A DNA stretch of 64,000 nucleotides. Origin: Thermoclostridium stercorarium subsp. stercorarium DSM 8532. Its GTDB lineage: Bacteria > Bacillota > Clostridia > DSM-8532. The stretch covers positions 744,001 to 808,000 of the forward strand of contig NC_020134.1 of the NCBI RefSeq assembly GCF_000331995.1, in the 5' to 3' direction. This document shows positions 24,727-40,431 of this stretch, piece by piece. A model generated the notes under the pieces. It saw nothing but the letters and a program-made list of their open reading frames with translations. It had not been told where the DNA came from and searched no databases. Made by a program: the position numbers and the translations under genes. Every line of letters begins with the position of its first letter. Within the stretch, counting starts at the first letter, position 1.

Positions 24727-24775
24727 GCATTAACCCGGTTAATAATTACAAATGAAAAATGTAAGGGGTGCGGGA

Positions 24776-25309
24776 ATGGAGATTTTTTACATTTGCGTTA
24801 TTCTGGTAGGGATTTGTATAGTTTTTTTTGCTTTAATCTGGATGGCGGTTGAGAAAAAGAATGCGCGGGATTACCGTTTGGAACTTGATGAGCGGGAACA
24901 CGAGCTGCGGCAGGTGATTGAAGATGCTGAGCAATTGTTGAACGAACTGAATAATTTTTCGGGTTATATTGTTGATCGGCTTGAAGAAAAACAGAAAAGC
25001 ATTGAAGATTTACTGGCAAGAATTGATGAAAAAACCGGAAATTTAAGTAACGCTGAGATTATCCAACCCGCGAATAACGCGGTTGACGATATTAAAGAAC
25101 CGGATAAAACAGAGGGGGAAAATACCCCACGCTCTGAAGAAGCATACGCCGGTTTCCTTCAAGGAAAAAAGGGCAAGCTTATTTCATTGGACGAAAGAAA
25201 AAATGAAGTTATAAAGTTATACAAAAAAGGGATTAGCAGTACTGAAATCGCAAGAATGCTCAATATGGGAAAGGGCGAAATTGAACTTATTTCCCGCATG
25301 TGCAAGTAG
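24776..25309 (+). CDS. Membrane-anchored coiled-coil protein with C-terminal HTH
   Basis: A 177-residue protein with one N-terminal membrane helix (about 3-22), a coiled coil (about 25-85), a polar linker and a C-terminal segment (VIKLYKKGISSTEIARMLN) that reads as a helix-turn-helix of the resolvase/sigma-4 type. This arrangement resembles DUF6115/DUF2802-like proteins common in flagellar operons. ATG 24776 follows AAGGGG by seven bases and is preferred to ATG 24752. Function unknown. Confidence 0.78.
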   Translation: MEIFYICVILVGICIVFFALIWMAVEKKNARDYRLELDEREHELRQVIEDAEQLLNELNNFSGYIVDRLEEKQKSIEDLLARIDEKTGNLSNAEIIQPANNAVDDIKEPDKTEGENTPRSEEAYAGFLQGKKGKLISLDERKNEVIKLYKKGISSTEIARMLNMGKGEIELISRMCK

Positions 25310-25352: not shown

Positions 25353-25451
25353 ATGGGAAAGATTCACGGTAAAAGTGTATTGTTGGGAATTGGAATAGGT
25401 ATAATTATTACGGCATTACTGGGACTTATTTATTCCATGGGTTACAAATAG
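25353..25451 (+). CDS. Single-helix small membrane protein
   Basis: A 32-residue frame opening MGKIHGKSVLLGIGIGIIIT, containing a glycine-rich hydrophobic helix with GxGxG spacing, and ending YSMGYK. GAAGGACAGG lies upstream. It is the last gene of the motility block, before tRNA-Leu. Similar glycine-rich one-helix proteins are frequent in Clostridia; function unknown. Confidence 0.62.
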   Translation: MGKIHGKSVLLGIGIGIIITALLGLIYSMGYK

Positions 25452-25502: not shown

Positions 25503-25591
25503 GCCGAAGTGGTGAAATTGGCAGACGCGCTGGACTCAAAATCCAGTGGAGCTCAAACTCCGTGTGGGTTCGAGTCCCACCTTCGGCACCA
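25503..25591 (+). tRNA. tRNA-Leu (CAA)
   Basis: Acceptor stem GCCGAAG pairs with CTTCGGC, followed by encoded ACCA. The anticodon loop CTCAAAA gives anticodon CAA. The long variable arm and GGTTCGAGTCC T-arm fit a class II leucine tRNA. Its last 27 bases recur at 34033-34059, bracketing the accessory island. Confidence 0.95.
25565..25591 (+). repeat. Putative left attachment site (tRNA-Leu 3' end)
   Basis: This 27-base segment of the tRNA matches 34033-34059 at 25 of 27 positions in the same orientation, as expected for integration at a tRNA 3' end. Confidence 0.65.
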
Positions 25592-25606
25592 GAAAACAAC
25601 GTGGTT

Positions 25607-25630
25607 CCCCTTTAAAAAGGGGATTTTTTT
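25607..25630 (+). terminator. Terminator after tRNA-Leu
   Basis: CCCCTTT/AAGGGG hairpin with an A-rich loop, followed by a seven-T run. Confidence 0.8.
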
Positions 25631-26229
25631 ATGGCGTCAATTAAGGTTTGACCGTTTATCTGTTCTGTTAAAAATGTTTATACAGGCACAATTCGTATTA
25701 TGTCGCCTCTTTAAACGTCCGATATAGTTATAATATAATTATGGCAATAATAAACCCCTCCGGAATGCCTGGCATCAGGATGGCTTTTCCATGATGCTGA
25801 GACTGCGTGCGGCGCTTCAAGACTATACGTCGTTTTCATTGATACAATACCGCCTTAAGCAAAGTATAAAGCTCACTTCAGATACTCTTACCCTTTCCAA
25901 ATCGGATAAACCCCGTCCGGTCTAACAATTAAGACTGGACTAATAAAAAGCAACTGTGTTAAAATTTAGGCAAAGGAACTGATAGGCATAACACTCCAGA
26001 CCGCAAAGCAAAAGAAAATACAAAAATACCTTAAAACAGCTAACTGTTAGGACGAAGCATTGCTCGTGCCGTGGGGTATCTCACACTACGGTCGGTAGGA
26101 TGAAGAACATTTTGCTGGTATTCGTCTTGACTACATTGAAGTATGAAAAGTGTGGTCAAGTTTCACGGAGACCAATAATTCCGTTGGTTTCATAGATTCA
26201 GCAAATCAGAATTAGCGGAGGTAGTATCT
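25631..26229. other. Gene-free stretch at left end of the island
   Basis: About 600 bases with no open frame supported by a ribosome site. Base composition is less AT-rich than the island genes. A structured-looking segment lies near 26060-26105 (CCGTGGGG/CTACGG), but no RNA family was recognised and no integrase remnant could be identified. Confidence 0.5.
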
Positions 26230-26630
26230 ATGTATGGAAAACAGCCGGCATTTTTCATTGTTTTTTTTTTGTAGTAATATTGATGTTGCTTTCAGGATGT
26301 AATGAAAAGACATTTTCCCTTGATTCAGGCAGGTATGTTCCTGACTATACCAAGGATGAGAAGGATATTAATATTGTGCCATATATCTTTATCGATAAAG
26401 ATAAATTTTCAATTATTCAGGACATTGCCGTGTCCTATCAGCCTTCAGGAACACTGATTAGAAAAGGTAATGAAGTTGTGATGGAAACAGTATTTGCGGA
26501 TGAAAGCTACAAATGGGTATTTACCTTGGTAGATAACAATAAATTGAAATTTGTTCTGAAAAAATCAGTTATTCCCAATAACCATTTTGAATGGGAAGAC
26601 GGAAGATTATTTTCTCTAACAGATGAATAG
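26230..26630 (+). pseudogene. Lipoprotein gene with frameshift in a T10 tract
   Basis: ATG 26230 has an ideal ribosome site (GCGGAGG, eight bases upstream) and starts MYGKQPAFFIVFF. A run of ten T (26261-26270) then puts it out of frame and it stops at 26272. The mature part lies in the next frame: VVILMLLSGC with lipobox LSGC, then a roughly 110-residue polar domain ending at 26630. Adding one T would restore a standard lipoprotein. So it is either a slippery, phase-variable gene, a decayed gene or a homopolymer sequencing error. No family recognised for the mature domain. Confidence 0.65.
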
Positions 26631-26795
26631 GCAAGGGTAGTTTCACACGAATATGTTAATAATCAATCATTATTAGTGACAGAGTCTTATTTTTATTAAA
26701 AGGTAAAGAAGGCTCCTTAAACGGTTCAAAATTTGACCTCTAAGCAAAATACAGCATTCAGTTAATAAATCGAGCAGAGGATGTGTTCATAATTA

Positions 26796-27275
26796 ATGAA
26801 TAGAATTAAAAAGATATTGCATCATAAAATCTACCTTGATTGTTTGCAAAAGCTTAAAGAGTTTGAAAAGGACAGAGAATTTTGCAAACATACATTAGAG
26901 CATTTTATTGATGTTGCAAGAATTATGTATATTATGGCCTTGGAAAATGATGATAATATTGATAAAGAGCTGATATATGCAGCAGGTTTGTTGCATGATG
27001 TGGGGAGAGTTAAAGAGTATGAAAACGGTACTCCTCATAATATAGCAGGACTGGACATTATTAGAAAAATAATGAACGATGCGGGTTTTTATGAAAATGA
27101 AATAAATCAGGTTTTAAATGCTGTTGAAAATCATAGAGATGAAAATGGCGGCAGAGATTTGTTGTCGAAATATTTGTATGAGGCTGATAAGAAATCGAGA
27201 AATTGTTTTTGTTGCATGGCTTACGATAAATGTAAGTGGAGTGAAGAAGAAAAGAATAGAAGCATTACAAAATGA
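26796..27275 (+). CDS. HD-domain phosphohydrolase
   Basis: A 159-residue metal-dependent HD hydrolase. Motifs: His in KHTLEHFIDVAR, the HD pair in LLHDVGR, and a later His in VENHRDE. The tail has a Cys cluster (NCFCCMAYDKCKW) that may bind metal. Similar HD proteins with a C-rich tail neighbour folate genes in other Clostridia as I recall. Here it precedes folPBKE but has its own transcription unit, since a strong promoter lies between. A role in removing phosphates from dihydroneopterin triphosphate is a reasonable guess but unproven. Confidence 0.8.
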   Translation: MNRIKKILHHKIYLDCLQKLKEFEKDREFCKHTLEHFIDVARIMYIMALENDDNIDKELIYAAGLLHDVGRVKEYENGTPHNIAGLDIIRKIMNDAGFYENEINQVLNAVENHRDENGGRDLLSKYLYEADKKSRNCFCCMAYDKCKWSEEEKNRSITK

Positions 27276-27401
27276 AGTTCATAAAATCTGCATATAATAA
27301 AAAAGTTGGTTTAAATTCTATATAAAGAAACATTTATGGAATATTAATATAAATTTGTAATTTGTATATTAATAAAGATAAAAATAGAAAAAATAAAACT
27401 A

Positions 27402-27430
27402 TTGACATATAATTTAATTTGAATTATAAT
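27402..27430 (+). promoter_or_regulatory. Full-consensus promoter of the fol operon
   Basis: TTGACA (27402-27407) and TATAAT (27425-27430) with the ideal 17-base spacer. It begins a leader of about 320 bases before folP. Confidence 0.85.
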
Positions 27431-27436
27431 GCAAGA

Positions 27437-27759
27437 TACAAACAAATTGTATTATTATACAGAAAATGGAAACTATAAAAGAACAATCCGGCGGATGTGT
27501 TAATATAGTGGATGTGTGGGTTTTATGAGTGCTGAAATACGCATAGATAGAGGAGAAGTCATGTCTACACCCCCGCACTTTTGGAAGGGTTTTATGGTAA
27601 TTCTTTAAGTTTTGATTATCAATTTAAATTATTCCGGGCTCAACTTCTCCAATAATGTCAGAAGATATATTAGATAATGGCAGGATCAGCTTGCCTCACT
27701 AATGCCGGTATTTTCGGCATTGTTTCAGCTATAGAAAAACAGGATGGTGTTAAGTAACC
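27437..27759 (+). promoter_or_regulatory. Long structured leader of folP (possible cis-regulatory RNA)
   Basis: The leader contains an 8-bp long-range stem GGAGAAGT (27552-27559)/ACTTCTCC (27643-27650), a possible GTGTGGG/CCCGCAC pairing across about 27515-27587 that would interlock with it, and a perfect hairpin AATGCCG/CGGCATT (27701-27721) shortly before the start codon. The hairpin lacks a good T run. It does not show the conserved cores of the tetrahydrofolate or ZTP riboswitches that I know. Function is inferred only from length and pairing. Confidence 0.45.
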
Positions 27760-28962
27760 ATGAAAAATGCATATGTTGTATACCCAAATGATTTAGAAGA
27801 AGTTGTTGCCGAAATTAAAAAAACCGGAGCCCATATTGATGAAATTAATATAATGAAGTGGAAAGCAAGGCATTTCCTTATAATGATAGAGAATGCATCT
27901 TCAGTGGCTGCAAATATCATTAAACAGGAAATGTTGTCTATGGGCGGAGAAGCCGCCATACATAAAGATATTTACTTTAACAAAATTGATTCTTCAAATG
28001 TTTTACTGATGGGAACAATATCTCAATACCGGAAGCTGCTTTCAAGATTGCGTATTCAGCCATATTTTTTGAAAGAAGAAACACAAGCACTTGAAAAGGT
28101 TATTCTTCAACTTCAGGAATCAAATAATTGCGTATTTCGTGCAGGTAAGTACTTGTTTCCTCTTAAACGCAAAGTGTATATTGTCGGTATTCTGAATGTC
28201 ACACCCGATTCATTTTTTGACGGCGGAAAATATATGAACTTAGAAGCTGCCATAAATCGTGCAAAAGAAATGGTAAGTCAGGGAGCAGATATTATTGAGG
28301 TAGGGGGTCAGTCTTTTGCTCCAGGATATACTGAGGTAAGCCAGGAGGAAGAATTAAACAGAGTTATTCCTGTAATAAAAGCTCTGGCAAAAGAAGTTGA
28401 TGTTCCTGTTTCTGTTGATACTGTTAAGCTTGCTGTAGCAGAAGAAGCCTTGAAAAACGGGTGTAGTATTGTTAACGATTCCTGTGGTCTTCAAAAATAT
28501 CCTGAAATTGCAGATTTAGTTGCAAAATACAATGCCGGCCTTGTTATTATGCATAATGCTACAAATAACCGTTACAATGATATAATTGGTGATATTATTA
28601 AGTTTTTACGTAACAGTGTAGACACAGCAATTAGAGCGGGTGTAAGTAAGGAAAATATTATCGTTGATCCGGGTATCGGAGCGACATTCGGAAAAAGTGC
28701 AGACCAACAGTTTGAAATACTTAAACGCTTTCGGGAATTAACAATCCTTGGCTTCCCGGTCATGTTGGCAATTTCAAGGAAATCATTTATAAAAAATTAT
28801 TTGAAAGCAGAATCCAGTGACGAAATTCTACCTGCTACTCTTGCTGCGACAGCATATGGCATTTCGCAAGGGGTTAAATTTGTACGAGCTCATGATATTA
28901 GTGAAACAATCCAAACAGTTAAAATTATAAATAGGATTCTGAATAACTATGTTGAAGATTAA
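27760..28962 (+). CDS. folP: Dihydropteroate synthase, long form with atypical loop 2
   Basis: A 400-residue protein. Residues 138-400 form the TIM-barrel that joins p-aminobenzoate to the pterin diphosphate (GILNVTPDSFFDGGK, PVSVDTVK, DPGIGATFGKS, ISRKSF). Residues 1-130 form the extra N-terminal domain (ANIIKQEMLSMGGEAA) found in the roughly 400-residue clostridial forms. The normally invariant loop GGESTRPG reads GGQSFAPGY (S185-F186-A187-P188-G189), MHMRGTP is IMHNATN, and DPGIGFGK carries two extra residues. These changes affect positions that normally contact substrates and sulfonamides. It overlaps folB by 14 bases. Confidence 0.85.
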   Translation: MKNAYVVYPNDLEEVVAEIKKTGAHIDEINIMKWKARHFLIMIENASSVAANIIKQEMLSMGGEAAIHKDIYFNKIDSSNVLLMGTISQYRKLLSRLRIQPYFLKEETQALEKVILQLQESNNCVFRAGKYLFPLKRKVYIVGILNVTPDSFFDGGKYMNLEAAINRAKEMVSQGADIIEVGGQSFAPGYTEVSQEEELNRVIPVIKALAKEVDVPVSVDTVKLAVAEEALKNGCSIVNDSCGLQKYPEIADLVAKYNAGLVIMHNATNNRYNDIIGDIIKFLRNSVDTAIRAGVSKENIIVDPGIGATFGKSADQQFEILKRFRELTILGFPVMLAISRKSFIKNYLKAESSDEILPATLAATAYGISQGVKFVRAHDISETIQTVKIINRILNNYVED

Positions 28963-29311
28963 ATTAAATAATATGCAATTTTATGGTTATCATGGCGTAT
29001 TACCCGAGGAAAAGAAATTAGGGCAGATTTTTCAGGTCGATGTGGTTGTATACATATCTGAAGAATGTATTAAGAACGATAATCTGGAAAATACGGTAAA
29101 TTATGTAGAAATATATAATATTGTTAAAAATGAAATTGAAAACCAAAGATATAATTTAATAGAGTTCCTTGCTGAACGTATAGCTGAAAAAATTCACAGT
29201 TTTTATTCAAAGCCAATAACGCGGATTATTGTGCGTATACGAAAACCCTCCGCGCCTATTAATGGTATTTTGGATTATGCAGAAGTTGAGGTTGATAAGA
29301 ACTATGGATGA
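28949..29311 (+). CDS. folB: Dihydroneopterin aldolase
   Basis: A 120-residue enzyme converting dihydroneopterin to 6-hydroxymethyl-dihydropterin. Family marks: FYGYHGVLPEEKKLGQ, the VNYVEIYNIV segment, LIEFLAERIA and the C-terminal RKPSAPI. Overlaps at both ends with folP and folK indicate translational coupling. Confidence 0.92.
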   Translation: MLKIKLNNMQFYGYHGVLPEEKKLGQIFQVDVVVYISEECIKNDNLENTVNYVEIYNIVKNEIENQRYNLIEFLAERIAEKIHSFYSKPITRIIVRIRKPSAPINGILDYAEVEVDKNYG

Positions 29312-29831
29312 CATTATATTGAGTTTGGGGTCAAATATAGGCGATAGGGAAAAGAACCTTAAGACTGCTTTATATCATATTATCCAGAATCCGTGTATTA
29401 GTCTTGTTGCAGTTTCAAACATTTATAATACGGAACCGGTTGGGTATGTGGATCAGGGGCCTTTTTTAAATTTATGTGTTTCAATACAGACAACTCTCAA
29501 TCCATATGAATTGTTATCGTCACTGCAAAATATTGAACGATTAATGCAACGGGAAAGAAATATTAGATGGGGACCGAGAAACATTGATATTGATATAATA
29601 TTTTATCGTGATGAGGTAATAAACGAAGAAAATCTAATTATTCCGCATCCAAGATACAAAGAAAGAAATTTTGTTATTATTCCGTTGTTGGACATTTGCG
29701 AAAAAGCGTTAATACCCAAGTTTAAGTCAATGATTCGTCAGGAAGGAAGAGTTGAGTTATATCGGAAATTCAATTTAAATGAATTATTAGAAGAAGTAAA
29801 AATAATACAAAATAGCAAAATATTTCTTTAA
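29304..29831 (+). CDS. folK: Hydroxymethyldihydropterin pyrophosphokinase
   Basis: A 175-residue HPPK. Motifs: LSLGSNIGDRE at the start, GPFLN, and the signature RWGPRNIDIDIIFY followed by PHPRYKERNFV. ATG 29304 overlaps the folB end and gives the proper N-terminus; longer frames do not. The C-terminal 25 residues are extra and Asn/Lys-rich. Confidence 0.93.
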   Translation: MDDIILSLGSNIGDREKNLKTALYHIIQNPCISLVAVSNIYNTEPVGYVDQGPFLNLCVSIQTTLNPYELLSSLQNIERLMQRERNIRWGPRNIDIDIIFYRDEVINEENLIIPHPRYKERNFVIIPLLDICEKALIPKFKSMIRQEGRVELYRKFNLNELLEEVKIIQNSKIFL

Positions 29832-29859
29832 CAACATATTGTTAAAGGGGTTGTAAAAC

Positions 29860-30420
29860 ATGAATACTGAAAAAATAAAATCATTAATTAGGGAGTTAAT
29901 AATAGAAATAGGGGATGATCCTGATAGAGAAGGTTTAATTGAAACCCCTTCTCGCGTAGCAGAGATGTTCAAGGAAATTTTTTCGGGTTATCAGGATATA
30001 CCGGAAAATACAGTTAAATTATTTAAAGAAACAAAACATGGTGATGGGATTATTATTAAAGACATTCCTTTTTATTCAATGTGTGAACACCATATTATGC
30101 CGTTTTTTGGAGTAATAGACGTAGCATATATTCCCAATAATGAATCTATATTAGGGTTAAGTAAATTTTCGCGAATAGTTGATTATTACAGCAAAAGGTT
30201 ACAACTACAGGAATGTCTGGGAGAGCAGATATGTGATTTTATCATGAAGGAAGTCAATGCCCGTGGTGCTATGGTAATAATAAAAGCAGAGCATTTATGC
30301 ATGTCGATGAGAGGAGTTAAGAAATCCGGAGTTAATACTATTACAAAAACTTCAAAAGGCGTGTTTAATGATAATTCTGAACTTAGAATGGAATATTTAT
30401 CTTTATTGTTGAATATGTAA
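29860..30420 (+). CDS. folE: GTP cyclohydrolase I
   Basis: A 186-residue enzyme opening folate/pterin synthesis from GTP. The zinc and catalytic motif CEHHIMPF, LSKFSRIVDYYSKRLQ and the second Cys in AEHLCMSMRG are present. A ribosome site AAAGGGG precedes the ATG. It completes a pterin set (folE, folB, folK, folP); folC and folA are absent from the window. Confidence 0.95.
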   Translation: MNTEKIKSLIRELIIEIGDDPDREGLIETPSRVAEMFKEIFSGYQDIPENTVKLFKETKHGDGIIIKDIPFYSMCEHHIMPFFGVIDVAYIPNNESILGLSKFSRIVDYYSKRLQLQECLGEQICDFIMKEVNARGAMVIIKAEHLCMSMRGVKKSGVNTITKTSKGVFNDNSELRMEYLSLLLNM

Positions 30421-30573
30421 AACAGTTAATAATTGAGTAAAATTTTGGCATATTATTTGTAAAATTTGACAACAGCTTTTTAAAATCTAAACCTTGTATA
30501 ATAAGTATTAGCACAATATAAAAAACACTTATACAAAAATTATGCTGTACAAACAACTAAGGAGATATTTTTA

Positions 30574-32319
30574 ATGTGGAAAAATTATAAAAAAATATTT
30601 TCATGGTTGTTTCAAATTGTTTTTCAATATAAAGAAAAACTATTTTTAATGATATTTTTACACTTGCTAATTTCAGGATGCAGCCTGGTTGTGCCTGTGT
30701 ATTTTAAATTATTTATTGATTTTATTATTCCAAGTAAAGATATTGTTTTGTTTATCATATTTTTAACCTTAGTGTTTGTTGTTATTTCTATTATTCCTTT
30801 GCTAAATAAAATGAAGGAAACATGTATCAGCACAGTCATCCTTAATTCAATAAAAAATGTTCAGTTACAGGTATTAAAAAAGCAAAGATATCTGGGGTTT
30901 GATTATTTTGAGAAGAATCCCGTAAGTGAACAACTATCTATTTATTCAGGTGATATTAATTATGTAAGCAATATTTATGATGCTTTATTTAGAACGGTTT
31001 TAGCAAAAATTTTTACCATATGTATCGCTGTAATCATAATATTGAATACAGATTATGTGATTTTTCTTTTTACTATATTGGTTATTGGCTTATATTTCGT
31101 AGCGGGATTGCCGTTTGAAAAAAGAAAGGCTGAAGCAGATGAAAGGATTACACAGTCACGAAAAGAATACCATACTGTAGCATATGAAACAATTTCATCG
31201 CTTCCAACCGTTTGTTCTTATAATAGTGAAGAATGGATCAAAAAAAGATTTACGAAATATCTTACATTATTTAACGATATTTTTGTTAAAGGTATTATGA
31301 TTGGTTTTTACACTGGGTCTGCAAGGCAACTTATTTTGCTGATTGGCAGAGTTTTTATATTGATAATTAGTTTTTTGCGTATAAGAAGCGGTGATATAGC
31401 TATATCTGATTTTATTTTGGTTAATACATATTACTTTTTATGTTTTTCTAATTTAACGGAAATGTCTTCCCGCATTGTTGATATGTTTTCATATTTACAT
31501 CATGCAAAGTTTATTATTGAATTTCTGGATATGGAAGTAACGGTTAAAGAACCTGAAAAGCCCGTAAATCATAAAATATCGGGCGAAATTGAATTTCGTA
31601 ATGTAAGTTTTCAGTATAATTCAGATAAACAAATACTGAAAAACATAAACCTTAAAATTAATAAAGGAGAACATATAGCGCTTGTTGGCAAAAGCGGAAG
31701 TGGAAAGTCCACAATTGCTAAACTGATTGCACGTTTTTATGACCCGTCATCAGGAGAAATATTAATTGACGGAATATCAAATAAACTTTATTCTTTTAAG
31801 GACTTGAGAGAATCAATTGGTTTTATATTTCAAGAGCCATTTATCTATTCAATGTCTGTTAAAGATAATATTCTGTTTGGCCGCCCGGAAGCGACATTAG
31901 ATGAGGTAATTGATGCTGCTAAAAAAGCTATGGCGCATGAATTTATTTTACAACTCAAAGATGGATATGATACTGTTTTAGGGAAGCAAGGACATGAGCT
32001 TTCCAGTGGGCAGAAGCAACGAATATCAATTGCGAGAATTATATTAAAAAATCCGAGTATTATTGTCTTAGATGAGGCTACTTCTAATCTTGATAACATT
32101 TCTGAAGCATACATCAAAAAAATGCTTGAAACATATTTTGCTGATAAAACATTAATTGTTATTTCACATAAGTTTTCTAATATTAAGGGGTTTAAAAAAA
32201 TCTTTGTTATTGATGATGGAAACATAGTGGAATGCGGCAGTTATGAAGATTTGATTAGAAAAAGGGGTAAATTTTTTAAACTGTATAAATATCAAACTGA
32301 TCGTACATGGGGGAGTTAG
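30574..32319 (+). CDS. ABC exporter half-transporter A
   Basis: A 581-residue fused membrane-ATPase subunit: six predicted helices (to about 320) and an ATPase with Walker A GKSGSGKST, Q-loop FQEPFIYSM, signature LSSGQ (a variant of LSGGQ), Walker B IIVLDEATSNLD and switch His in VISHKF. It is paired with the next gene one base away, so they probably form a heterodimer. The codons are very AT-rich compared with flanking chromosomal genes. Substrate is not predictable; proximity to the fol genes may be coincidental to island transfer. Confidence 0.88.
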   Translation: MWKNYKKIFSWLFQIVFQYKEKLFLMIFLHLLISGCSLVVPVYFKLFIDFIIPSKDIVLFIIFLTLVFVVISIIPLLNKMKETCISTVILNSIKNVQLQVLKKQRYLGFDYFEKNPVSEQLSIYSGDINYVSNIYDALFRTVLAKIFTICIAVIIILNTDYVIFLFTILVIGLYFVAGLPFEKRKAEADERITQSRKEYHTVAYETISSLPTVCSYNSEEWIKKRFTKYLTLFNDIFVKGIMIGFYTGSARQLILLIGRVFILIISFLRIRSGDIAISDFILVNTYYFLCFSNLTEMSSRIVDMFSYLHHAKFIIEFLDMEVTVKEPEKPVNHKISGEIEFRNVSFQYNSDKQILKNINLKINKGEHIALVGKSGSGKSTIAKLIARFYDPSSGEILIDGISNKLYSFKDLRESIGFIFQEPFIYSMSVKDNILFGRPEATLDEVIDAAKKAMAHEFILQLKDGYDTVLGKQGHELSSGQKQRISIARIILKNPSIIVLDEATSNLDNISEAYIKKMLETYFADKTLIVISHKFSNIKGFKKIFVIDDGNIVECGSYEDLIRKRGKFFKLYKYQTDRTWGS

Positions 32320-32320
32320 T

Positions 32321-34069
32321 TTGTTTAAGTTTATTTTTAAAATTATAAAATCTAAAGGGATTTATTTTTTTACAAGTTTATTATTGCTATTGGTTACAAA
32401 TATCTCATCACTGTTATTAATTAGTATGCAGAAAGTTCTTATAGACAATGTTTTTGTAAATTTTAGTACGGCATTATTCGTTAAAACACTTATAATTATA
32501 ATATTATTGACATTAATAAACATTTTTTTGTATTCCTTAAATCCATATATCATGTTAAAACATCAAATGATGTCACGGATTTCATTGTGTAGTGAAATTA
32601 TAAATAAAATTTATTCATTGCCATTAGATGTTTTTATGCGAAAAAAGACCGCAGATTTTACTAATTATATATTGCGGGATGCTGCCATATGCACTCATTT
32701 TGTTTCTTTTATTTTACCTCAATTTATAAATGTGGTAATATTGTTTATTGTTTATACAGTGTATCTTATTCACATTGATTACAAAATTATACTGTTCGTT
32801 GTTATTGGTTCAATTGCTATCATTATTTTGGAACGAAAAACGGGGGGATTGGTGAGGGACAATCGCAAAATTATTATGGAAAATGAAAATAAAATAATGG
32901 CATTTTTCGACGAGGCATTAACACATACAAGACAGGTTATTGCTTTTCATCGTGAAAAATGGGAAGCAGGTGTGTTCAATAAAATATTTAAGAATTACTT
33001 TGATAGTTGTCTTAAACAAATTAAAATTACTTCTAACATAACTCTATTGAAAGAATGGTGTAAATGGTTTCCGCAAGTTATTATTTTGGCTATTATTGGT
33101 TATAACGCAATTTTCAAGGAAATGTCCGTTGGAACTATGATTATTGCTTATGAGTTGTCCAGCAATGCGATGGATTATATTCTTTCTATTTTCAACTATG
33201 TTATAGAATTACAAAATGGAAAGCCATATTTAGTTAATATAAAAACATTGCTTAATGAAAAAGAAATAAAATACGGGCAGGAAGGATTTCCTCATGAATA
33301 TAAAGTTGTTGAATTGAAAAAAATAAATTTTTCATATAATTCAGATAAACTTATATTGAAAGATATATCTATGAAATTCTGCAAAAATGAAATAATTGCA
33401 ATTGTGGGAAAAAGCGGGAGTGGAAAATCAACAATTGGAAGACTGTTATCACGGAAATACGAGCCTGACTGTGGTGATATATTAATAGACGGTATACCAG
33501 TGAAAAAAATAAAACTTACAGAATGGAACAAGCATATTAAATTAGTTAATGAAGACTCTTTCATATTTGCTGATACGATAAAAAATAACATTTTATTGGG
33601 AAGGCGGGATATTACCGATGAACAGTTACATAATATTTGCATGATGGTCGAATTGCATGATTATATAATGAGACTGCCGCATCAGTATGATGAATTATTG
33701 GGTGAACAGGGCGTAACTTTATCTGGGGGGCAAAAAAGTCGTTTGCTGATAGCAAGAGCGCTCGTAAACAATCCTGATATTCTTATTCTTGATGAAACGT
33801 TTTCCTCTTTGGATGCTGAAACTGAATACATGATATATTCCAATATCAGATGGTACAGAGCAGATAAAATAACAATAATTGTGACACATAGGCTGTCAAG
33901 TATAACTAATGCGGATAGAATTTACGTTATAGACAATGGGGAAATAGTGGAAGCCGGAACTCATGAAGAATTAATCAATAAAAAATCTTTGTATTATGAG
34001 CTTTACAATTTTGATAAGAGGGAAAAGCCATATGGGTTCGAGTCCCGCTTTCGGCACCAAAAGGTATGA
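32321..34069 (+). CDS. ABC exporter half-transporter B
   Basis: A 582-residue partner of the preceding subunit with Walker A GKSGSGKST, canonical LSGGQ, LILDETFSSLD and switch motif THRL. The start is TTG 32321 after GGGGGAG. Its last 13 or so residues (YGFESRFRHQKV) are encoded by the tRNA-Leu 3'-end copy at 34033-34059, so the natural C-terminus was probably replaced when the island inserted. The core ATPase is unaffected. Confidence 0.86.
   Translation: MFKFIFKIIKSKGIYFFTSLLLLLVTNISSLLLISMQKVLIDNVFVNFSTALFVKTLIIIILLTLINIFLYSLNPYIMLKHQMMSRISLCSEIINKIYSLPLDVFMRKKTADFTNYILRDAAICTHFVSFILPQFINVVILFIVYTVYLIHIDYKIILFVVIGSIAIIILERKTGGLVRDNRKIIMENENKIMAFFDEALTHTRQVIAFHREKWEAGVFNKIFKNYFDSCLKQIKITSNITLLKEWCKWFPQVIILAIIGYNAIFKEMSVGTMIIAYELSSNAMDYILSIFNYVIELQNGKPYLVNIKTLLNEKEIKYGQEGFPHEYKVVELKKINFSYNSDKLILKDISMKFCKNEIIAIVGKSGSGKSTIGRLLSRKYEPDCGDILIDGIPVKKIKLTEWNKHIKLVNEDSFIFADTIKNNILLGRRDITDEQLHNICMMVELHDYIMRLPHQYDELLGEQGVTLSGGQKSRLLIARALVNNPDILILDETFSSLDAETEYMIYSNIRWYRADKITIIVTHRLSSITNADRIYVIDNGEIVEAGTHEELINKKSLYYELYNFDKREKPYGFESRFRHQKV
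34033..34059 (+). repeat. Putative right attachment site
   Basis: A 25/27 match to the 3' end of tRNA-Leu (25565-25591), direct orientation, ending in CGGCACCA. There is no acceptor or anticodon half upstream, so it is not a second tRNA gene. Confidence 0.7.
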
Positions 34070-34234: not shown

Positions 34235-34540
34235 TCAGTCAACAAATTCAATTCTTCCTCCTGCCCGTTTTATTTCCTCGAAGAGCTCAGCAATGTCTTT
34301 ACCTGAGAAGAATCTCTTCAGGAAAGGAAGCCTTACGATTATGCAGATACCACCGGGTGAAGAAATTTCCAGCAGGTTTAACAGGTTGATTTCTGCCCCG
34401 GCGGGAATGAAAATCCTCAAAATTGTCCCTTCCTTTTGAGGACAAACGTTACGGGCAAGGGTGCGCTCTTCTTGTTCATCACGGCCTCTCACACGGCTGC
34501 CGGAACGTCTTGTAGCCTCCAGCGCTTCTCTGTAATCCAT
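34235..34540 (-). CDS. Unknown 101-residue protein
   Basis: The ATG at 34540 has a strong ribosome site (AAGGAGGTG, seven bases upstream) and the gene ends just before a clear terminator. The N-terminal third is Arg/Glu-rich and probably flexible (EALEATRRSGSRVRGRDEQ); the remainder alternates hydrophobic strands and a helix (GTILRIFIPAGAEINLL, IAELFEEIKRAGG). No membrane helix and no known family recognised. It is the first gene outside the island. Confidence 0.72.
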   Translation of the reverse strand: MDYREALEATRRSGSRVRGRDEQEERTLARNVCPQKEGTILRIFIPAGAEINLLNLLEISSPGGICIIVRLPFLKRFFSGKDIAELFEEIKRAGGRIEFVD

Positions 34541-34808: not shown

Positions 34809-35390
34809 TTAATATTTCTGATTTATATAATTGTCTGCCAGAGATTTTCTCTTTTCATCCGCAAAAACTCCCTCTTCTTTGAGACGTTTCAGAATGAAAG
34901 GGTTTGTGGAATGCAGTATGATATAATCAGACTCCATTCCGCCGTAGGGAGTTGATAAAGCATTAATTTCAAACAGTACGTCAGGATCCTTTATGACTAT
35001 TTCAAATAATTTGTTTTGGAGCTTTTTCGATTTTACCTTGACAAAATAAGCTTCGACATTGCGAAAATCCAGAAGCTTCAACAATGTCATCGTGACTTTG
35101 TCTTTTTCCCTGTAATAACTGTTTGACTGAGCTATTAAACTTGCTTTTTCCTTGCTGCCGTCGGGAAAATCCCTGGCCATGCTGTAATAAAATTTAGCCA
35201 GCACATTAAAATAATGGTAATTGTAAATGGCTTTTTTAACGTTATCTACCCTCTTAAAGGGCTCTATTCCCAGCCGCTCAATGGTGGCATAATTAGCCTC
35301 TATAAACTCGTTTTTTGTCAAATCTCCCATTTTATATTGTAACAGCAGGCTTTGCCGATGCTTAAGAAAACTGTTGAATTTATTGTCCAT
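34809..35390 (-). CDS. DUF6648-like clostridial protein
   Basis: A 193-residue soluble, mostly helical protein. The opening (NKFNSFLKHRQSLLLQYKMG) and the central YNYHYFNVLAKFYYSMA segment resemble a clostridial family I recall as DUF6648; the assignment is from memory. GCGGTGATAAA lies before the start. Monocistronic; function unknown. Confidence 0.7.
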   Translation of the reverse strand: MDNKFNSFLKHRQSLLLQYKMGDLTKNEFIEANYATIERLGIEPFKRVDNVKKAIYNYHYFNVLAKFYYSMARDFPDGSKEKASLIAQSNSYYREKDKVTMTLLKLLDFRNVEAYFVKVKSKKLQNKLFEIVIKDPDVLFEINALSTPYGGMESDYIILHSTNPFILKRLKEEGVFADEKRKSLADNYINQKY

Positions 35391-39533: not shown

Positions 39534-39895
39534 GGGGGCGTATTGGTTTCGACGGGATTATTGAAGCAAGAGTAGCGGGTAGAGGATTCTCGTTGGCCTC
39601 TTTAAAAAACGAGAGCTAAAAATAAACGCAAACAACGATAACTACGCTTTAGCTGCTGCGTAAGTAACACGCAGCCCGTCGGCCCCGGGGTTCCTGCGCC
39701 TCGGGATACCGGCGTCATCAAGGCAGGGAACCAGCCGGATCAGGCTTCAGGTCCGGTGGGATTTAATGAAGCTACCGACTTATAAAGCCTGTCTCTGGGC
39801 GTTATAAGAAGGGAATGTCAAAACAGAGACTGCACCCGGAGAAGCTCTTGTGGATATGGTTCCGGACACGAGTTCGATTCTCGTCGCCTCCACCA
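39534..39895 (+). ncRNA. ssrA: tmRNA (SsrA)
   Basis: The 5' end GGGGGCG pairs with CGCCTCC near the 3' end, which is followed by ACCA; the T-arm GTTCGATTC is present. The tag frame begins at GCA 39628 and encodes ANNDNYALAAA before TAA at 39661, a normal ClpXP-type degradation tag. Its 3' end served as an integration site for the element whose relic follows. Confidence 0.96.
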
Positions 39896-40431
39896 TCAAA
39901 AGTCACAATTTTATCTATTTCGATTTTATCTTCATACACAATTATTTTATTAACGTAATCCCGGATGATGCGTTTCTGCTCTTCCGGGCTTTTGTTTCTT
40001 ATATCAGCATCTTTCTGAAGGTATTTCCTTATCATATCTTCGGTAGGCGCATGTGTTTTGGCTTGCAATTTGGCTTCTTCTAATTTAAGCAAAAGGTTTG
40101 CTTCCTTTGTTTCAAGTTCATCCATTTTTTCCTTTATAGACGGATGGAACATCCCTGCTGCTATGACATTTACTATGTTGTTTATTTCAGTCTGAATACC
40201 AGCGAGTTGGTCAGTAAATATGTTTTTATATCACGATTTATTTCTTCGACCTGTGAAGCAGCATATTCAGATATTTTTGCAATAATCCTTTCTATAGCTT
40301 CAGGTGAAAATACGTTCTTCTCAGGATGTTCAATAACGAGGTTCTCTATATATCTTTATTGATAATCTTCATGACGCATTCTTTTGTTCTTTTTCTATTA
40401 GAGCATTCATACGTCACGTAAAAGTTTTATT
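39896..40431 (-). pseudogene. Serine recombinase C-terminal relic
   Basis: Minus-strand frames show, in order, a zinc-ribbon piece (YECSNRKRTKECVMKIINKD), then ENLVIEHPEKNVFSPEAIE, then after another shift TDQLAGIQTEINNIVNVI through the coiled coil to YVNKIIVYEDKIEID. These are the C-terminal features of large serine recombinases. At least two frameshifts separate them and the catalytic domain is gone. The final codons (GGGDENRTRV) run into the complement of the tmRNA 3' end, showing that the element abuts ssrA. It marks the left end of a decayed integrated element. Confidence 0.8.

Follow-up and report, generated by a model that had tools for sequence, protein, structure and literature searches.

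The tRNA-Leu(CAA) gene of Thermoclostridium stercorarium subsp. stercorarium DSM 8532 is followed by a segment of 8.47 kb (25592–34059) that carries folate-biosynthesis genes and an ABC exporter and ends in a second copy of the tRNA 3′ end. We analyzed it within a 64-kb stretch of the chromosome (NC_020134.1, positions 744,001–808,000 of the forward strand), here called the window, whose numbering is used unless a contig or locus is named. The segment is very probably a horizontally acquired island that entered by site-specific insertion at the 3′ end of tRNA-Leu(CAA), has since lost its integrase, and is now most likely fixed. The following features mark its limits:

25503–25591, + strand: intact tRNA-Leu(CAA), left boundary (attL side), found by ARAGORN and Rfam (RF00005, 56.7 bits)
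25565–25591, + strand: left copy of the 27-nt repeat, within the functional tRNA, found by repeat searches
25593–25635, + strand: terminator-like hairpin and T run, TTCCCCTTTAAAAAGGGGATTTTTTT, directly 3′ of tRNA-Leu, read from the sequence
34033–34059, + strand: displaced 3′ fragment of tRNA-Leu (attR side), 25/27 positions identical, found by repeat searches; not a tRNA gene

The 3′-terminal 27 nt of the tRNA, from the T-arm to the CCA end, recur at 34033–34059 on the same strand with two mismatches, and the repeat can be extended to 40 nt at 83% identity. The runner-up within the window, the 3′ end of tRNA-Lys, has six mismatches. A 26-nt core pattern, searched with up to three mismatches, occurs at exactly two places in the window, with none expected from shuffled sequences. 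The repeat had been described in an initial annotation made from the DNA letters, and its length, orientation and two differences are borne out by these searches. That annotation would have withdrawn the proposal had the right copy turned out to be a degenerate tRNA gene of its own; ARAGORN detects no tRNA there, and Rfam matches the left copy only. The DNA between the copies is foreign in composition, with a GC content of 0.315 and a third-position GC content (GC3) of 0.269 for its coding sequences, compared to 0.426 and 0.439 for the other 44 open reading frames (ORFs) of the window. GC for the whole island is 0.32, and the lowest-GC 8.5-kb stretches in a scan of all 64 kb coincide with it, as expected from the AT-rich interval of about 8.5 kb originally noted.

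An unoccupied version of the site is found in a congener (G002); a comparison of related genomes for such empty sites had been proposed in the initial annotation. The flanking genes that define the locus are:

24752–25309, + strand: left-flank gene, which precedes tRNA-Leu(CAA) in genomes throughout the family
34235–34540, − strand: right-flank gene p101, family unassigned, whose ortholog follows tRNA-Leu by 240 bp in G002
34809–35390, − strand: gene with a DUF6648 domain (PF20353), which marks the right flank of the tRNA-Leu locus throughout the family

In G002, tRNA-Leu(CAA) lies at L046:1333–1419, and the 3′ end of the p101 ortholog is reached 240 bp further on. When the window flanks were joined without the island, they aligned with this locus through the junction with a score of 669, compared to 348 and 384 for the single flanks. 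Other family members keep the order upstream gene, tRNA-Leu(CAA) and DUF6648 gene, and the DNA in between is short or unrelated: it measures ∼1 kb in G017 and 1.4–2.6 kb in G020, G009, G018 and G004, and other, longer DNA lies within the locus in G008 and G024. G002 has neither folP nor folK, and 30 of the 32 family genomes lack both; the genes and their junction are thus not conserved among relatives. Such conservation would have spoken against an insertion.

Between the two copies of the repeat, all genes lie on one strand:

26230–26630, + strand: gene for a small putative lipoprotein, lipobox LSGC; no Pfam or NCBIfam family matched
26796–27275, + strand: HD-domain hydrolase (PF01966, 1.4e-15)
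27760–28962, + strand: folP, dihydropteroate synthase with an N-terminal extension of ∼120 aa (TIGR01496, 278 bits; PF00809)
28949–29311, + strand: folB, dihydroneopterin aldolase (TIGR00525, 110 bits)
29304–29831, + strand: folK, HPPK (TIGR01498, 150.6 bits)
29860–30420, + strand: folE, GTP cyclohydrolase I (TIGR00063, 195.8 bits, and NF006826, 245.9 bits, both over cut-off)
30574–32319, + strand: ABC exporter subunit 1, an MsbA/SAV1866-like half transporter (PF00664 and PF00005)
32321–34069, + strand: ABC exporter subunit 2, kin to SAV1866/BmrA chains (PF00664 and PF00005; from the ORF list)

The profile matches agree with the gene content first proposed (HD hydrolase, folPBKE and ABC exporter), except that the lipoprotein is plausible only. 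The island brings most of the folate-making genes to a family that is almost entirely without them, since folP and folK each occur in 2 of the 32 genomes, that of the window and G005. Genomes that make folate de novo are recognized by having both FolK and FolP (PMC1971073), and profiles for both match in the window's genome. A further match, to the PabB model TIGR00553, scores 273 bits, below the 328-bit cut-off; similar matches are seen in all congeners and may represent TrpE. FolT-family S-components are matched in all 32 family genomes (22 above cut-off), most strongly in this genus and three others related to it, which fits folate uptake as the ancestral state. The family appears to live by folate uptake. 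The island probably confers dihydropteroate synthesis and may have led to a gain of folate prototrophy. If so, a core vitamin pathway would have been regained through a single insertion at a tRNA site, in a genus in which the empty site is still visible, and both folate prototrophy and sulfonamide sensitivity are predicted to be tied to the island.

The arrangement of these genes has counterparts elsewhere. Folate clusters of other Clostridia (G005 L030, G039 L027 and G027 L029) share the folP-folB-folK order of the island. In G005 an HD gene also adjoins folP, its product being 34% identical to the island HD protein over 100 aa, and the HD gene is therefore no odd passenger. The clusters of G039 and G027 encode an N-terminally extended FolP, as in the island; in that of G027, however, folE precedes folP, and the FolPs of all these clusters are at most 45% identical to the island protein. 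No bounding tRNA repeats were noticed at these clusters, although none were sought. The set HD-folP-folB-folK thus recurs as a folate cluster, in G005 and partly in G039. The initial annotation had called the cargo unusual. This holds for its presence in a folate-scavenging family, but not for the gene set itself, given this recurrence; the class of island and its mechanism have long been known, and the cargo is mildly unusual rather than categorically new. We found no literature report of folate genes in a tRNA-Leu island. On plasmids, the cargo was represented by distant FolPs and generic ABC exporters only (all <60% identity), and no FolP was found on viral contigs.

tRNA-Leu(CAA) is an integration hotspot in the family. 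In G001, of the same genus, the gene is cut after base 42, where contigs C94 and C23 overlap (L153, G001:C23 1–300). A full replacement tRNA-Leu(CAA) lies less than 200 nt from the cut and is followed by genes for a tyrosine integrase of 504 aa, an HTH_17 protein and a member of the EcoRI-methylase family. This element resembles the island in its genus, its host gene and the restoration of tRNA function by the element itself. It differs in its crossover in the anticodon region, its full replacement tRNA, its integrase and accompanying HTH_17 and methylase-family genes, and in that no folate genes are seen on the 3.5-kb contig. In G007, a 58-nt 3′ fragment of tRNA-Leu, 98% identical to the window tRNA, lies on the DUF6648 contig (L154, G007:C27, 4592–4649), while the intact gene is on a separate contig beside the upstream gene; the fragment would mark another island at tRNA-Leu, with most of its content off the contig. 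Both of these elements are inserted at the anticodon sub-site, and the window island at that of the T-arm. Among viral contigs, the 26-nt core was found in 30 stretches, many of which are ordinary tRNA genes. On the phage contig L158, however, a tyrosine recombinase gene ends ∼120 nt from a copy of the core that spans only the T-arm to the CCA and is not part of a tRNA gene, and tyrosine recombinases are also encoded near the core on L177, L162 and L179. Tyrosine integrases that use this core therefore very probably exist.

The layout of the locus is that of the islands collected by Islander (PMC4383910), with an intact tRNA gene and, further downstream on the same strand, a 3′ fragment that extends to the CCA end, a core of the J type (T-arm), overlap with a coding sequence outside conserved domains only, and a length of 8.47 kb within the 2–200 kb range; it differs from them in having no integrase ORF inside or overlapping it, among the annotated frames and the intergenic readings scanned. 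The general marks of a genomic island are also present, namely an empty site in a close relative (G002), deviating composition and a patchily distributed cargo. We infer that the island arose by site-specific recombination at the 3′ end of tRNA-Leu(CAA), at the T-arm/acceptor sub-site, most likely catalyzed by a tyrosine integrase. The 3′ end carried by the incoming DNA would have restored the tRNA, and the original 3′ end of the host, which under the standard model may be the right copy, would have been displaced to 34033–34059, the two copies now differing at two positions. Tyrosine recombinases are the only ones known to act on tRNA genes (PMC4383910). The integrase could have been lost from the island, or have resided on the same larger element and been deleted. 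Fixation after this loss is the simplest reading, although the loss of mobility is less certain than the insertion. The event would have delivered HD-folP-folB-folK-folE and a two-gene ABC exporter to an otherwise folate-importing lineage.

Several observations weigh against this interpretation. No integrase, excisionase or conjugation gene is present among the annotated frames of the island, and the missing integrase makes it a defective or in-trans element that the integrase filter of Islander would reject (PMC4383910). The donor was not found, a search of genome contigs yielding three distant FolP loci only. The genus offers a single clean empty site (G002), as the site is occupied in G001, and rearranged and at a contig end in G003. 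The intergenic DNA beside the CCA end aligns poorly for ∼100 bp, so the crossover position is set by the repeat rather than by the alignment. Finally, the hairpin at 25593–25635 aligns at 40 of 43 positions with the terminator that follows tRNA-Leu in the distant G022 (L057 1910–1952); the congeners of G022 have other sequences at this position, and the pattern was not found in viral contigs.

The missing integrase bears on two alternatives. The initial annotation had left open whether the island is fixed, decayed or mobilized in trans, and its statement that no integrase is present holds for the annotated frames and for the gap readings scanned: no remnant was recognized, even with Pfam matches of E<1 admitted, in the 25592–26290 gap (six frames) or, for two plus frames out of three, in the 27270–27765 gap. 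A satellite-like island that is still excised by the tRNA-Leu-specific integrase of another element would retain both att copies, as is the case here (25/27), and could draw on integrases such as that found in the same tRNA gene of a congener. Subunit 2 of the exporter would also stay open across the junction of a hypothetical circle (33900–34059 joined to 25592–25800), with another C-terminal tail. We nevertheless consider continued mobility unlikely. No excisionase, packaging or transfer gene is present, the elements of G001 and G007 sit at the anticodon sub-site rather than the T-arm, and no PF00589 match in the genome was tied to tRNA-Leu. Four proteins match PF00589: two that we take to be XerC/D-like from their size and conservation, one at 422.7 kb that belongs to a prophage next to tRNA-Thr, and one at 1.955 Mb with 186 aa and no tRNA within ∼10 kb. 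The latter two were rejected as resident integrases for tRNA-Leu on these grounds, and none of the four is tRNA-Leu-linked, although serine recombinases were not searched. Fixation or decay is thus favored over mobilization in trans, and the initial annotation is upheld in its main points. An entry without any integrase, by homologous recombination between the tRNA-Leu 3′ ends of donor and host, would account for the missing recombinase gene, and tRNA 3′ ends are conserved enough to offer short homology. However, efficient RecA recombination needs more than 27 nt with two mismatches. Integrases do use tRNA-Leu in related genomes, and the exact layout of tRNA and 3′ fragment is an integrase signature (PMC4383910), so that we regard this route as very unlikely.

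The distribution of folate genes could instead reflect an ancestral segment, with vertically inherited fol genes that the rest of the family has lost; the tRNA fragment would then be left over from an earlier, unrelated insertion. G005, of the same family, does carry HD-folP-folBK, and other insertions have used tRNA-Leu. Against this, the repeat, the compositional change and the empty site have common limits, and 30 of 32 family genomes lack folP and folK. The island FolP is an outlier, being 36–45% identical to the four other FolPs compared, which are 45–63% identical to each other, G005 included. FolP of G005 shares 56% identity with its counterparts in G025 and G039 but 42% with that of the island, which in turn is 42–45% identical to the proteins of G005, G025 and G039. 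These pairwise identities argue against common vertical descent with G005, and we judge the ancestral scenario highly improbable. A broader proposal, which we consider very unlikely, is that the island is a transferable vitamin-prototrophy cassette, still mobilized in trans at tRNA-Leu and turning a folate scavenger into a producer, with the linked exporter releasing a pterin or folate product as a shared good of the community; that the exporter moves pterin or folate is speculative.

The two adjacent half-transporter genes suggest a heterodimer. They share the exporter architecture of SAV1866, BmrA and MsbA (transmembrane plus nucleotide-binding domain), but are only ∼30–35% identical to any relative found, with the best relatives in the class at ∼35% for subunit 1. 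The frame of subunit 2 crosses the displaced tRNA fragment, which lies in its C-terminal tail, and stops 10 nt past it; of its 582 residues, the ABC_tran domain extends only to 494. In the lipoprotein gene, an ATG preceded by GGAGG opens a frame that closes just past a T10 tract, and the lipobox LSGC is in another frame (26230–26290). Because the ATG-started frame ends at this tract, the gene is frameshifted or mis-sequenced there, through a frameshift, a homopolymer sequencing error or slippage at T10. Rfam identified no RNA within the island, a tetrahydrofolate riboswitch included.

Some features nearby were also noted. No repeat of the tmRNA 3′ end was found in the window; an ORF overlapping that end (39802–40152, − strand) resembles a serine-recombinase C-terminus by impression, with no Pfam match; a 3-kb stretch that is AT-rich and poor in genes follows it. 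In G003, the 5′ side of tRNA-Leu is separated from the upstream genes by two further genes (L048 1811–4527), one of which encodes an AraC-like regulator. The ORF at 25353–25450, which comes after the left-flank gene, encodes ∼30 aa, compared to ∼130 aa for its orthologs in relatives, which we take to be MltG/YceG-like, and is apparently truncated.

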